From NCBI GenBank assembly GCA_027487945.1, contig JAIYCQ010000008.1, positions 1 through 64,000 of the forward strand: a stretch of DNA of 64,000 nucleotides. Reading direction: 5' to 3'. This DNA is from Caulobacteraceae bacterium. Lineage in GTDB: Bacteria; Pseudomonadota; Alphaproteobacteria; Caulobacterales; Caulobacteraceae. Below the pieces are notes generated by a model, which did not search any database, was not told where the DNA came from, and worked only from the letters and a program-made list of their open reading frames with translations. Position 1 is the first letter of the stretch, and every line of letters begins with the position of its first letter. This document shows positions 13,993-18,898 of this stretch, piece after piece. A program made the position numbers and the translations under genes.

Positions 13993-16392
13993 ATGGCGCG
14001 GGCGGCGAGGCGGACCGGGCTGGATATGGCGATGGAGCTGGCGGCCTGGGCCTGGACCCAGCCGTTCAGCGCGCGTCTGCGCGGCGGCGTGGTCGCAGCG
14101 GCCGGCCTTGCGCTGATCGCCGCCTTCGCCACCTGGAATTCTGCCGACCCCAGCCTGAACGTCGCCTCGGCCCTGCCGGCCAGCAACATCCTGCGCGGAC
14201 CGGGCGCCGTGGTCGCCGACATCTTCGTCCAGTCGCTGGGCCTCGCCGCCTGGGGGCTGGCCCTGCTGATGGTCGTCTTCGGCCTGACCCGCGCCGTCGA
14301 TCCCGAGCCGGACGTCCATCGCCGTTCCACCCGCCTGCGGGCGCTGGTCGGCGTCGGGGCCGTGCTGGCGCTGGCCGGGGCCATCGCGGCGCCGAGCCCG
14401 CCGAAGAGCTGGGCCCTGGCCCGGGGTCTGGGCGGCTTCTGGGGCGACGGCCTGCTGGGCGCCCTGTCGGGCATCATCGGCTTCGCCCGTATTCCCGGGG
14501 CGGAGCTGATCGCGTCTCTGGTGCTGCTTGGCGTCGGCGGGTTCGCCGCCACCTGGGCCCTCGGGGTTAGCCGGGCCGGCATGGCCCGCGCCGCCGAGGG
14601 CGCGCTGGAAAACCTCCTGGCCCGGCGGGCGGCGCCGCGCGCACCCGAGCCGGCCGCCGCCCCCGCAAAGGCCCCGGTCGCCCGGCGCCGCGCCGAGAAG
14701 CCCGCCGCCGCGCCCAAACCGCTGCGCTTCGCCGACGATCCCCCCGTCGAGGCGGGCGAGGATGATGCAGAGATCCCCGCTGCGGGTCGCCCCGGCGCCC
14801 CTGCCATCAAGCCGCCCAAGCCCGCGCCGAAGAACAGCAGCCGCGAGGTGCGCGAGCAGCAGAAGACCTTCGACTTCGTCGCCCCCGGCGGCTTCATGCT
14901 GCCGGAGCTGGCCATGCTGGCCAAGCCCAAGCCCCGGGTCGGCGGCTTCGACGAGGCGGCGCTGCGCCAGAACGCCCGGCTTCTGGAAAGCGTGCTGAGC
15001 GAGTTCGGCATCCGGGGCGCCATCGACCAGATCCGCCCCGGCCCCGTCGTCACCCTCTACGAGCTGGTGCCGGCGCCGGGCGTCAAGCACGCCCGGGTCG
15101 TGGCCCTGGCCGACGATATCTCCCGCTCGATGGGCGTGGCCGCCTGCCGCGTGTCGGTGGTGTCCGGCCGCAACGCCATCGCCCTGGAACTGCCCAACGC
15201 CAAGCGCGAGACAGTCTATCTGCGCGACCTGCTGGCCAGCGCCGACTACGAGAAGGCCTCCCAGACCCTGCCCATGGCGCTGGGCGAGACCATCGGCGGC
15301 GAACCCTATATCGCCGACCTGGCCAGGATGCCTCACCTGCTGATCGCCGGCACCACCGGGTCGGGCAAGTCGGTCGGGGTCAACGCCATGATCCTGTCGA
15401 TCCTCTACCGGCTGAGCCCCGAGCAGTGCCGGTTCATCATGATCGACCCCAAGATGCTCGAGCTCTCCGTCTATGACGGCATCCCGCACCTGCTGGCCCC
15501 GGTGGTGACCGACTCGAAGAAGGCGATCGTGGCCCTGAAGTGGACCGTCCGCGAGATGGAGGACCGCTATCGCCGGATGGCCAAGATCGGGGTGCGCGGC
15601 ATCGCCGCCTACAATGAGCGGGCCAAGGAGGCCATCGACAAGGGCGAGCACTTCGAGCGCACGGTCCAGACCGGCTTCGACGAGGCCGGCCGCCCGATCT
15701 TCGAGAGCGAGAAGATCCGCCCCGAGCACATGCCCTATCTGGTCGTGGTCATCGACGAGGTCGCCGACCTGATGATGGTGGCCGGCAAGGACATCGAGGG
15801 CGCCGTGCAGCGGCTGGCCCAGATGGCCCGCGCCGCCGGCATCCACCTGATCATGGCCACGCAGCGCCCGTCGGTCGACGTCATCACCGGCACCATCAAG
15901 GCCAATTTCCCGACCCGCATCAGTTTCCAGGTCACCTCGCGCATCGACAGCCGCACCATCCTGGGCGACCAGGGCGCCGAGCAGCTGCTGGGCCAGGGCG
16001 ACATGCTCTACATGGCCGGCGGCAGCGGCGGCCGGCTGACGCGCCTGCACGGCCCGTTCGTGGCCGATGAGGAGGTGGCGGCCGTGGCCCGGTTCCTGCG
16101 CGAACAGGGCACGCCGCAGTACCTCGACGAGGTTACCGCGGGCGGCGACGACGAGGACGGCGACGGGGGCGGCTATGGCTCCGGCGGCGATGGCGACGAG
16201 AACAGCCTCTACGACCGCGCCGTGGCCGTGGTCACCCGGGACGGCAAGGCCTCGACCAGCTACATCCAGCGCCGGCTGCAGATCGGCTACAACCGTGCGG
16301 CGTCCCTGATTGAACGGATGGAGCAGGAGGGCGTTGTTGGAGCCGCCAACCACGCCGGCAAGCGCGAGATCCTGGCGCCGCCGCCGCCCTAG
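13993..16392 (+). CDS. ftsK: DNA translocase FtsK
   Basis: FtsK (799 aa) is the septum-located ATPase that pumps the chromosome terminus at division and activates XerCD recombination. The first ~220 residues contain about four hydrophobic membrane segments. A Pro/Ala-rich linker follows to about residue 310. Then come the alpha domain and the RecA-like motor with Walker A GTTGSGKS (about 453) and Walker B VVVIDEVADLMM (about 585). The C-terminal ~65 residues are the winged-helix gamma domain (LYDRAVAVVTRDGKASTSYI). The ATG at 13993 is preferred over the TTG at 13981. lolA follows 49 bp downstream. Confidence 0.97.
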   Translation: MARAARRTGLDMAMELAAWAWTQPFSARLRGGVVAAAGLALIAAFATWNSADPSLNVASALPASNILRGPGAVVADIFVQSLGLAAWGLALLMVVFGLTRAVDPEPDVHRRSTRLRALVGVGAVLALAGAIAAPSPPKSWALARGLGGFWGDGLLGALSGIIGFARIPGAELIASLVLLGVGGFAATWALGVSRAGMARAAEGALENLLARRAAPRAPEPAAAPAKAPVARRRAEKPAAAPKPLRFADDPPVEAGEDDAEIPAAGRPGAPAIKPPKPAPKNSSREVREQQKTFDFVAPGGFMLPELAMLAKPKPRVGGFDEAALRQNARLLESVLSEFGIRGAIDQIRPGPVVTLYELVPAPGVKHARVVALADDISRSMGVAACRVSVVSGRNAIALELPNAKRETVYLRDLLASADYEKASQTLPMALGETIGGEPYIADLARMPHLLIAGTTGSGKSVGVNAMILSILYRLSPEQCRFIMIDPKMLELSVYDGIPHLLAPVVTDSKKAIVALKWTVREMEDRYRRMAKIGVRGIAAYNERAKEAIDKGEHFERTVQTGFDEAGRPIFESEKIRPEHMPYLVVVIDEVADLMMVAGKDIEGAVQRLAQMARAAGIHLIMATQRPSVDVITGTIKANFPTRISFQVTSRIDSRTILGDQGAEQLLGQGDMLYMAGGSGGRLTRLHGPFVADEEVAAVARFLREQGTPQYLDEVTAGGDDEDGDGGGYGSGGDGDENSLYDRAVAVVTRDGKASTSYIQRRLQIGYNRAASLIERMEQEGVVGAANHAGKREILAPPPP

Positions 16393-16441
16393 GCGCGGTT
16401 TCGGTCAAGAATTCGCCGCTGCGCCCTGCTAGACGGATGCC

Positions 16442-17062
16442 ATGACCACGACCAGACGCGCTCTCCTCGCCGCCGCCCCGGCCCTGCTGCTGGCCCCGGG
16501 CCTTGCCCACGCGGCCCTGTCGCCCGCCGACCAGGCCATGGTCGACAAGGCCACCAGCTACCTGCAGGGCCTGTCCTCCGCACGTGGCAAGTTCGTGCAG
16601 ACCGACGCCCGCGGCTCGCAGTCGACCGGGATGCTGTACCTGCAGCGCCCGGGCAAGGCCCGCTTCGAGTACGAGGCGCCGTCCAGCCTGCTGGTGGTCT
16701 CCGACGGCCGCGTCGTCTCCGTCGCCGACAAGCGGCTGAAGACCGTGAACCGCTATTTCCTCAGCCAGACGCCTCTGAAGCTGTTCCTGGCCGACGAGAT
16801 CCGGCTGGACCGCGGCGTCCACATCGCCGGGGTGAAGGCCCTGAACGACGGCTTCGAGATCACGGCCCAGGATCGGGCGGGAAAGACCAAGGGGCAGATC
16901 ATCATGACCTTCTCCGACAGCCCGGTGCAGCTGCTGGGCTGGACGGTGACCGACGCCCGAAACGCCCCGACCCGGGTGCGGCTGACCAGCCTGGTGCGGG
17001 CGTCCGGGCTCGATCCGGCCCTGTTCAAGGCCCCCTACCCCACCCCGGCACGGCGAGGCTGA
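16442..17062 (+). CDS. lolA: outer-membrane lipoprotein carrier protein LolA
   Basis: LolA (206 aa) shuttles lipoproteins across the periplasm from LolCDE to the outer membrane. It has a signal peptide (RRALLAAAPALLLAPGLAHA) and the family pattern KATSYLQGLSSARGKFVQTDARGSQSTG, followed by LYLQRPGKARFEYEAPSSLLVVSDGRVV. The ftsK-lolA order is widespread in proteobacteria. It probably shares the ftsK transcript. Downstream is the predicted small RNA gene at 17153. Confidence 0.94.
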   Translation: MTTTRRALLAAAPALLLAPGLAHAALSPADQAMVDKATSYLQGLSSARGKFVQTDARGSQSTGMLYLQRPGKARFEYEAPSSLLVVSDGRVVSVADKRLKTVNRYFLSQTPLKLFLADEIRLDRGVHIAGVKALNDGFEITAQDRAGKTKGQIIMTFSDSPVQLLGWTVTDARNAPTRVRLTSLVRASGLDPALFKAPYPTPARRG

Positions 17063-17116
17063 CGCTAGGTCCGTTTGTGACACATTCGCAACAGGCAAAT
17101 ACCCTGATTCAGCCTG

Positions 17117-17146
17117 TTGACGTTTCTGTGGGCTCGTTGCAATAAT
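17117..17146 (+). promoter_or_regulatory. promoter of the predicted small RNA
   Basis: TTGACG (17117-17122) and AATAAT (17141-17146) with an 18-bp spacer, close to the sigma70 consensus. The predicted start at about 17153 falls just before the first hairpin of the RNA. No match to the GGAAC-N16/17-CGTT general-stress promoter was found at this place. Confidence 0.55.
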
Positions 17147-17152
17147 GCCACG

Positions 17153-17276
17153 CATAACGGTAGCGCGCCCGACCTCGCGATACCGTCGCACCGTGCCGGA
17201 ACCTATCCCCTCCCGGCGGCGGCATGAGAGACCACCTTTGGCGCCCGGATGCTTCGCGCATCCGGGCGTTTCTTTT
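17153..17276 (+). ncRNA. candidate structured small RNA with C-rich loops
   Basis: About 124 nt between a good promoter and a very strong terminator, in the lolA-xth gap, with no plausible reading frame. Hairpin 1: ACGGTA (17157-17162) pairs with TACCGT (17181-17186) and CGCG with CGCG inside it, leaving the loop CCCGACCT. Hairpin 2: GCCGG (17195-17199) pairs with CCGGC (17213-17217), exposing AACCTATCCCCTC; an alternative pairing TGCCG/CGGCA exposes the same bases. Hairpin 3 is the terminator at 17242-17276. C-rich loops of this kind in alphaproteobacterial small RNAs pair with Shine-Dalgarno regions, and GsrN of Caulobacter has this general design. Identity with any known RNA is not established. 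Confidence 0.6.
17242..17276 (+). terminator. terminator of the small RNA
   Basis: An 11-bp perfect stem, CGCCCGGATGC (17242-17252) with GCATCCGGGCG (17258-17268), loop TTCGC, then TTTCTTTT. The strongest intrinsic terminator in the window. It could also end read-through from ftsK-lolA. Confidence 0.9.
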
Positions 17277-17302
17277 GGCCCGAAACCCCTTATCTGACGG
17301 TC

Positions 17303-18109
17303 ATGCGCCTCCGTCTCGCCACCTGGAACATCAACTCGGTCCGCCCACGCGGAGAGCTCATCGGCCGGATGGTCGACGAGGTGGCGCCCGACGTCCTGTG
17401 CCTCCAGGAGATCAAGTGCCAGACGGCGGAGTTCCCGAAGGCGATGTTCGAGGACCTGGGCTTTTCCCACTTCCGCATCGCCGGCCAGAAGGGCTGGCAC
17501 GGGGTGGCCATCGCCTCGCGCTATCCGATCGAGGACGCCCGGCCGCTCGAGGTCTGCCGCGAGGGGCATGCCCGCTGCGTCGGGGCGAAGGTCGCGGGGG
17601 TCGAGATCCACAACTTCTACATTCCGGCCGGCGGCGACCTGCCCGACCGGGCGCTGAACCCCAAGTTCGACCACAAGCTGGATTTCTACGAGAGCCTGAC
17701 GCGCGAGCTGGCCCTGCGGGACCCGAAGGCCCCGCTGGTCGTCACCGGCGACCTCAACGTGGCGCCGGGCGAGTTCGACGTCTGGAACCACCGCCACATG
17801 TCGAAGATCGTCAGCCACACCCCGGTCGAGGTCGAGGCCTTCCGGGCCATGCAGGCATCGCTGGGGCTGATCAACCTGGTGCGGGAGGCGACCCCCGAGC
17901 CGGAGAAACTGGCCAGCTGGTGGAGCTACCGCGCCGCCGACTTCCGGCAGTCCAACCGCGGGCTGCTGCTCGACCACATCCTGGTGACGCCTGGCCTGCG
18001 CGACGCCGCCTTTGCCGGCGGCCGTGCCCAGGCCCGCATCCACGACGACGTGCGCGGCTGGGACAAGCCCAGCGATCACGCACCGGTGACCGCCGACTTC
18101 ATGGTCTAG
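17303..18109 (+). CDS. xth: exodeoxyribonuclease III (AP endonuclease)
   Basis: A 268-residue member of the exonuclease III/AP endonuclease family, which incises DNA at abasic sites in base excision repair. Motifs: LRLATWNINSVRPR at the start, CLQEIKCQTAEFP with the metal-binding Glu, VVTGDLNVAP with catalytic Asp/Asn, and GWDKPSDHAPV with the C-terminal Asp-His pair. The ATG at 17303 matches the family's usual N-terminus; an in-frame start at 17249 would lie inside the small RNA terminator and adds residues without family character. The gene ends 2 bp from the convergent toxin gene. Confidence 0.95.
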   Translation: MRLRLATWNINSVRPRGELIGRMVDEVAPDVLCLQEIKCQTAEFPKAMFEDLGFSHFRIAGQKGWHGVAIASRYPIEDARPLEVCREGHARCVGAKVAGVEIHNFYIPAGGDLPDRALNPKFDHKLDFYESLTRELALRDPKAPLVVTGDLNVAPGEFDVWNHRHMSKIVSHTPVEVEAFRAMQASLGLINLVREATPEPEKLASWWSYRAADFRQSNRGLLLDHILVTPGLRDAAFAGGRAQARIHDDVRGWDKPSDHAPVTADFMV

Positions 18110-18110
18110 C

Positions 18111-18527
18111 TCAGCAGGCGATCGCCTTGACGTGCCCGGCCGCGGCATACTCCAGCAGCGGCCGGTCGCGGGTCAGGATCCGGCAACCCAGGGCCCGGGC
18201 CGTCGCGGCGATGACGCGGTCTGCGGGATCCCGCAGACGCGACTGGGGCAGGAAGGACGCCTCCACCATGATCTCGGGGCTGAGGTCGGTCAGCTGCACC
18301 CCGGCCTCCACCAGACCTGTGAACCAGGTCAGCGGCGACTCCAGCAGCGCGATCCGGCCCCGGGCCACGAGCATCCCGAGCTCCCAGGCGGTGATCGGCG
18401 ACACATAGACCGCCGCCGCGGCCTGTTCCGCCTCGGCGATGGCGGCCCGCGCGCCCGGCGACAGTCCATCGGGGCGGGTCGCCCAGATGGCCGCACAGGT
18501 GTCCAGAAGGATGGGGGAGACAGTCAC
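18111..18527 (-). CDS. vapC: PIN-domain toxin, VapC type
   Basis: A 138-residue PIN-domain protein, probably an RNase toxin. The acidic active-site residues are visible: ILLDTCAAIWA (Asp9), SPITAWELGML (Glu near 49), and the third acidic motif LRDPADRVIAATA, which forms the metal-binding pocket, followed by ILTRDRPLLEY. It follows the antitoxin gene with a 4-bp ATGA overlap, implying translational coupling. Such modules serve in plasmid or chromosome stabilisation and stress growth control; the RNA target is unknown. Confidence 0.88.
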   Translation of the reverse strand: MTVSPILLDTCAAIWATRPDGLSPGARAAIAEAEQAAAAVYVSPITAWELGMLVARGRIALLESPLTWFTGLVEAGVQLTDLSPEIMVEASFLPQSRLRDPADRVIAATARALGCRILTRDRPLLEYAAAGHVKAIAC

Positions 18528-18898
18528 CGCTCGGCGTCCCAGATCTCACCGACGGGCGCAGCCAGATCGACACCCGCCGCGACGGTGACCGTGCCGCCGA
18601 GACGGGCCTGAATGCGTTCCAGAAGCGTCCCGGCCAGGGCCTGGGCGCGCGTGGCGTCCCGGGTCCGGCGAAAGACCAGCCGCTCGGCAGCGATATCCAC
18701 CCGTTCGGTGTGATAGCCGGCCGCCAGCCAGGCGCGGGTCATGACGTTGTTGCCCGGGTTGTTGCTCCACCAGGCGGGATACTTCTTCGAGGCCGGCAGG
18801 GGCTGACCGATGACGCGCTCGATCTCGGCGAAGGTCATCACCGCCTCGGACCCGGCGGCGCGGGCGAGAAAGTCGGTCAATGGCGCATACTTACTCAT
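18524..18898 (-). CDS. antitoxin of the PIN-domain pair, DUF7662-like N-terminus
   Basis: A 124-residue protein translated just before the PIN toxin and overlapping it by 4 bp, so it is almost certainly the antitoxin. It does not look like a usual VapB (AbrB or ribbon-helix-helix). Residues 3-78 (KYAPLTDFLARA, TFAEIERVIGQPLP, YPAWWSNNPG, RAWLAAGYHTERVD) match the pattern of the DUF7662-type domain otherwise found in small standalone proteins. The C-terminal ~45 residues, ending VGEIWDAER, probably wrap the toxin. An inverted repeat upstream (18911-18948) may be its operator. Confidence 0.7.
   Translation of the reverse strand: MSKYAPLTDFLARAAGSEAVMTFAEIERVIGQPLPASKKYPAWWSNNPGNNVMTRAWLAAGYHTERVDIAAERLVFRRTRDATRAQALAGTLLERIQARLGGTVTVAAGVDLAAPVGEIWDAER

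Follow-up and report, generated by a model that had tools for sequence, protein, structure and literature searches.

In Caulobacter crescentus, the interval between lolA and xth encodes RusT (CCNA_R0199), an Hfq-bound RNA of 118 nt, on its plus strand (PMC11005374). It folds into four stem-loops, the last of which is a Rho-independent terminator, and carries a conserved stretch at nt 45-57 in SL2 that contains C53; Hfq is needed and leaves a footprint at nt 73-84 (PMC11005374). The promoter is bound and repressed by NtrX, and the RNA is induced by iron chelation or zinc and represses TonB-dependent receptors and OmpW under iron starvation (PMC11005374). RusT acts in trans on reporters in C. 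crescentus, and its pairing with ompW is backed by a compensatory mutation (PMC11005374). The same paper draws the comparison with RyhB, likewise an iron-starvation small RNA working with Hfq, which differs in being controlled by Fur and is likened to RusT by function, not by sequence. ChvR resembles RusT as a Caulobacter small RNA directed against a TonB-dependent receptor, but is described in the available part of PMC6237742 as Hfq-independent, controlled by ChvI and encoded at the recF locus. GsrN, as far as the accessible portion of PMC5869019 describes it, also exposes a C-rich loop, but is transcribed from a sigma-T promoter at another locus and activates katG.

The window analyzed here, a 64,000-nt stretch of a Caulobacteraceae genome, contains a lolA-xth gap (17063-17302) that holds a sigma-70-like promoter, two hairpins and a terminator reaching to about 17276 (Table 1). 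Pfam searches identified the genes flanking the gap as ftsK, lolA and xth. Because the gap, the predicted size of the RNA and its seed all agree with RusT, we hold with high confidence that this gap encodes the RusT ortholog. The locus is therefore not a new small RNA, RusT being already known from C. crescentus. The sequence-only reading had proposed an unnamed RNA of GsrN-like design; this gives way to the known RNA of the same lolA-xth gap, and the resemblance to GsrN is superficial.

Table 1. Coordinates of the rusT locus and its neighbors in the window.
Feature	Position	Strand	Basis
lolA, 5′ neighbor	16442..17062	+	Pfam LolA, E 6e-30
Upstream imperfect palindrome TTGTGACACATTCGCAA (TTGTGA-N5-TCACAA in relatives)	17075..17091	.	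Candidate operator
-35 box TTGACG	17117..17122	+	Promoter scan
-10 box AATAAT	17141..17146	+	Promoter scan
rusT ortholog, predicted transcript of ~125 nt	17152..17276	+	Start by homology with C. vibrioides; structure model; fold
SL1 hairpin, loop CCCGACCU at 17168-17175	17157..17186	+	Fold prediction; homolog folding
SL2 hairpin carrying the seed	17191..17222	+	Fold and structure model
Seed loop AACCUAUCCCCUC (loop 2)	17200..17212	+	Position equals RusT nt 45-57; target tests
AUGAGAGACCACCUUU, candidate equivalent of RusT SL3 / Hfq footprint	17224..17239	+	By position
Intrinsic terminator, 13-pair stem and U-rich tail	17240..17276	+	Terminator prediction; stem covariation
xth, 3′ neighbor	17303..18109	+	Pfam Exo_endo_phos, E 5e-25; start picked by homology

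The two promoter boxes are separated by an 18-bp spacer, match the consensus at 10 of 12 positions, and form the sole sigma-70-like site in 2.6 kb (16000-18600), where dinucleotide shuffles averaged 0.1 such sites. With the transcript start set at G17152 by alignment to the C. vibrioides start, positions 17152-17276 were predicted to fold at -57 kcal/mol (z -3.6) with both loops present, and none of 200 shuffles was equally stable. Folding of all 160 nt, including the promoter, gave a z of -3.0 (1 of 200 shuffles) and a different SL1, which makes the structure dependent on where transcription starts. The terminator stem (17240-17270) has 13 pairs by the prediction tool, read as 11 Watson-Crick pairs and two G-U pairs, and is followed by UUUCUUUU; taken alone the terminator was at chance level (1 found versus 0.8 expected). 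The promoter, the two hairpins with their loops and the 11-bp terminator stem were thus recovered where the sequence-only reading had placed them, and its statement that a general-stress promoter is lacking held on inspection, GGAAC being absent from 17060-17151. Its expectation that control would differ from that of GsrN agrees with the NtrX and iron control of RusT (PMC11005374). The Rfam scan that it had suggested as a check returned no family at gathering score in the whole window (Rfam 15), and four permissive matches near the gap lay far under their gathering scores. Beyond xth, on the minus strand (18111-18898), a PIN-domain protein adjoins a DUF7662 protein in a toxin-antitoxin-like arrangement, from which alone their pairing is inferred.

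Caulobacter vibrioides DSM 9893 (L023) served as the stand-in for the NA1000 RusT sequence in all comparisons. A genome of the window's genus (G001) has a 290-nt stretch identical to that of DSM 9893. In DSM 9893, 118 nt counted from GCATGG end in the U-run and place AACCTATCCCCTC at nt 45-57, the interval published as conserved. A table in the available part of PMC5988900 gives the NA1000 rusT start site as 3987216, and the accessible portion of PMC5172544 lists a hypomethylated GANTC at 3987164-3987166. By these partial sources the two are 52 nt apart in NA1000; in DSM 9893 a GAATC lies 53 nt before GCATGG, and the agreement in spacing gives independent support to this start. The SL2 loop of the window is the same 13 nt as that of DSM 9893, standing in for NA1000. 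The window's rusT further resembles RusT in its gap, its location on the plus strand, its size class, hairpin order and terminator, in the presence of hfq and ntrX in the genome, and in the match to an OmpW ribosome-binding site. It differs in length (125 nt by homology prediction versus 118 nt) and in the sequence of the SL1 stem, which departs from that of C. vibrioides. The predicted fold comprises SL1, SL2 and the terminator, with no separate SL3 in the prediction. Near-identical RNAs were found at L038 and L119. The latter, labeled Pseudomonas sp., carries lolA-rusT-xth, and the label looks wrong; so does that of L059, labeled Brevundimonas vancanneytii, which also carries lolA-rusT-xth and equals L012, from a genome placed in the window's genus.

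Conservation was evident at several depths. A nucleotide search with the whole region found matches in 24 of 41 genomes. The window's genus, represented by 25 genomes with the window's own counted, accounts for 23 of these matches, and the 24th is a terminator-only match. The SL2 pattern was present in 18 of the 19 relatives' loci from this search (L002-L020), L016 being one seed base off. A scan of named genomes for this pattern returned 104 stretches, mostly labeled Caulobacter, Phenylobacterium or Caulobacterales; the pattern fixes the seed and the following GGCATGA, so that finding these bases conserved among the 104 carries no evidential weight. The combined set comprised 123 sequences (122 loci and the window), of which 111 were distinct, and the synteny read from them was strong: lolA lay upstream and xth downstream in 114 of the 123, and 8 were cut by a contig end. 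One locus, L113, has rusT with lolA upstream and no xth within 4 kb downstream.

Each of the 96 distinct homologs folded was predicted to form an SL1 hairpin, with a z below -1 relative to mononucleotide shuffles in 93, and the sequence of this hairpin is strongly variable. Among the 39 sequences with loop CCGACC, 51 double-change cells were counted in the stems versus 18.2 in shuffles (0 of 500 reached this); the sequence-only reading had named a lack of compensatory changes in the stems of relatives as refuting it. The terminator stem alone gave 39 versus 10.2 (0 of 500), with two of five covariation measures for the terminator alone not beyond shuffles (23 and 55 of 500). Covariation was clearer for the terminator than for SL1, in which 78% of cells were paired because some rows have the 3′ arm misaligned. 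The SL2 stem is nearly invariant, and covariation therefore speaks neither for nor against it.

The upstream region contains the imperfect palindrome listed in Table 1. Of 108 distinct homologous loci, 61 carried it at the same position with at most 2 mismatches and one further locus carried it elsewhere, versus 0 of 115 control stretches inside lolA. The extended palindrome, allowing up to 3 mismatches, had a single occurrence per genome in 6 genomes, in every case upstream of rusT; the exact core is absent from the window's genome. NtrX is the obvious candidate to bind it. NtrX is reported to bind at ntrY in C. crescentus, and the palindrome was not found in the stretch before ntrY of the window's genome, so this tie is unsupported. 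The ntrX product of the window's genome scores above its NCBIfam cut-off, and its gene lies in the hfq cluster next to that of a sensor kinase; this kinase, which reaches no NCBIfam cut-off shown, was taken as ntrY by position, and hfq itself is present. GANTC near the promoter was mildly enriched (44 of 108 versus 22 of 107 control stretches).

The target complementarity of the loops was then assessed by computation. The window's genome contains 25 receptor Plug domains and one OmpW, with start codons called by a simple script. The seed paired with the -40 to +30 regions of these 26 genes at a mean of -11.2 kcal/mol, versus -8.7 for 46 genes of the window (p 0.001), and only 1 of 500 shuffled seeds was as good. 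Seven of the 26 targets and none of the 46 controls had the motif GGGG(A/G)UA ahead of the start; two control genes reached -14.5 kcal/mol or lower. For loop 1 (CCCGACCU) there was no signal on receptor and OmpW starts, 356 of 500 shuffles being as good. The earlier suggestions that the C-rich loops pair with Shine-Dalgarno sequences and that targets could be predicted from them were therefore borne out for loop 2 and not for loop 1. The OmpW gene of the window's genome has GGGGAUAG just before the AUG, as does one of two C. vibrioides OmpW genes, and AAGGGGAUAGACCAAUG, which is close to one C. vibrioides OmpW site; the second C. vibrioides OmpW is without GGGGAU. In C. vibrioides, where the test covered 30 of 63 receptors, the seed gave a weaker result, equaled by 7 of 300 shuffles.

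For the family's OmpW genes taken together, the fit of the seed was equaled by 1 of 300 shuffles, and GGGGAU was present in 19 of 32. Grouped by strength of the RusT match, the genomes with this motif before OmpW numbered 16 of 22 (strong), 3 of 5 (weak) and 0 of 4 (none); the p of 0.014 for strong versus none takes no account of kinship, three of the four genomes with none belong to one genus, and the cut-off was chosen afterwards. G029, an outgroup genome with its own diverged copy of RusT, was tested with both seeds. The window's seed did not fit its receptors (171 of 500 shuffles as good; 30 of 47 receptors tested), whereas its own seed fitted them modestly (35 of 500) and gave no fit on the targets of the window's genome (156 of 500). 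When 17 sequences were read for covariation between the seed flank and the OmpW site, agreement was seen in G092 and in G077, which has its OmpW site over 20 nt ahead of the AUG, and was lost in G093, G081 and G053; several of the 17 are without GGGGAU at OmpW, and only the core is shared. These data support by computation the prediction that the seed targets TonB-dependent receptors and OmpW.

Other explanations of the locus were weighed against these results. A RusT ortholog with two seeds, in which the SL1 loop also selects targets, would account for the CCGACC loop core that 47 of the 96 distinct homologs have above a variable stem, and ChvR of C. crescentus does use two pairing sites, according to the available part of PMC6237742. 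The loop-1 target test argues against it, as do the other loops found in the remaining 49 homologs, which include L012 of the window's genus and L110 and L115 (labeled Caulobacter), and we consider a second seed unlikely. The terminator ends 26 nt before the start of xth and synteny is strong, as would be expected of a cis-acting leader or attenuator of xth. In C. crescentus, however, RusT is made as a transcript of its own, 118 nt long, and acts in trans on reporters (PMC11005374), the xth matches start at variable distances (~91 to 205 nt past the seed among the loci listed), and at four lolA-adjacent outgroup matches no xth was found in the adjoining ~1.5 kb; a role as xth leader is thus very improbable, and this reading was set aside.

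GsrN or a direct relative would share the exposed C-rich loop. In the accessible part of PMC5869019, however, GsrN homologs are typically near ecfG-nepR-phyR (C. crescentus excepted) and GsrN is activated by sigma-T, whereas the window's RNA lies between lolA and xth and has no GGAAC upstream; the neighbors examined for general-stress genes were the ftsK, lolA, xth, PIN and DUF7662 genes. It is locus and promoter, not sequence alignment, that set GsrN apart here, and on these grounds we give that identity almost no credence. Equally implausible is a chance promoter-like match next to a bare terminator with no functional RNA: that the terminator alone does not exceed chance is as this would predict, but the covarying stems, the synteny of the homologs and the RNA demonstrated in C. 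crescentus all oppose it, and it was set aside.

The RusT ortholog is accordingly named as the preferred reading, and a model for its action can be drawn up by analogy with C. crescentus. Disturbed iron homeostasis would lift NtrX repression of the rusT promoter, and an RNA of ~125 nt would be made and end at its own terminator. Hfq, on which the RNA would likewise depend in this organism, would bind the stretch before the terminator. The SL2 loop, whose complementarity to the ribosome-binding site of OmpW and to those of many TonB-dependent receptors is supported by the computations above, would pair there, and this pairing may block translation and trim the set of outer-membrane transporters. 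SL1 most likely stabilizes the 5′ end and does not select targets. A characterized iron-starvation RNA is thus placed in a genome with no Rfam match, and its working part is narrowed to one loop. GGGGAU before the AUG offers a testable rule for target prediction in species without RNA data.

A structure model (R1), provided here, was built from sequences including the window, its E of 5e-32 on the window being that of one of its own input sequences. At a cut-off of E 0.001, R1 matched 153 of 199 Caulobacteraceae genomes; among the 182 good genomes it matched 141. The window's genome and its genus account for 39 of the 153, and none of the 20 unmatched genomes listed (of 46) belongs to that genus. 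In genus g12 all seven fetched matches follow lolA, with xth beside six, the seventh (L168) lying on a 3.4-kb contig; AUCCCCU was present in 6 of the 7, and a separate set of fetched genomes had it in 17 of 17.

Within the order but outside Caulobacteraceae, R1 matched 8 of 16 genomes at E 0.01. In six of these 16 the best match (L322-L327) is a diverged RusT-like UCCCCUCCCGG hairpin just downstream of lolA on the same strand, two with xth beside it. The matches at L328 (E 2.5e-4) and L329 (E 0.006) lie away from lolA, so matches weaker than ~E 2e-4 are untrustworthy, and the weakest of the 153, a few of which exceed that value, may be false. By sequence comparison, the range of RusT thus widens beyond the genus Caulobacter to take in much of the family and, it appears, further families of the order. 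A search of open-licence PMC papers found no earlier account of the RNA outside that genus, though Fig. S4 of PMC11005374 may show other genera of the family. We propose tentatively, with slightly more doubt than belief, that RusT is an order-wide, lolA-linked family whose SL2 loop co-evolved with receptor ribosome-binding sites, and that a GGGGAU-type site before the AUG marks its regulon.

Weak second R1 matches were considered as paralogs and rejected: those in G001, G008, G003 and G133 are CCTCCCCC-rich hairpin repeats with a terminator, and that on contig C16 of the window's genome (G000) is a terminator only. At loci L160-L163, in Caulobacter genomes, CCTCCCCC-rich hairpins next to a terminator resemble REP-type repeats.
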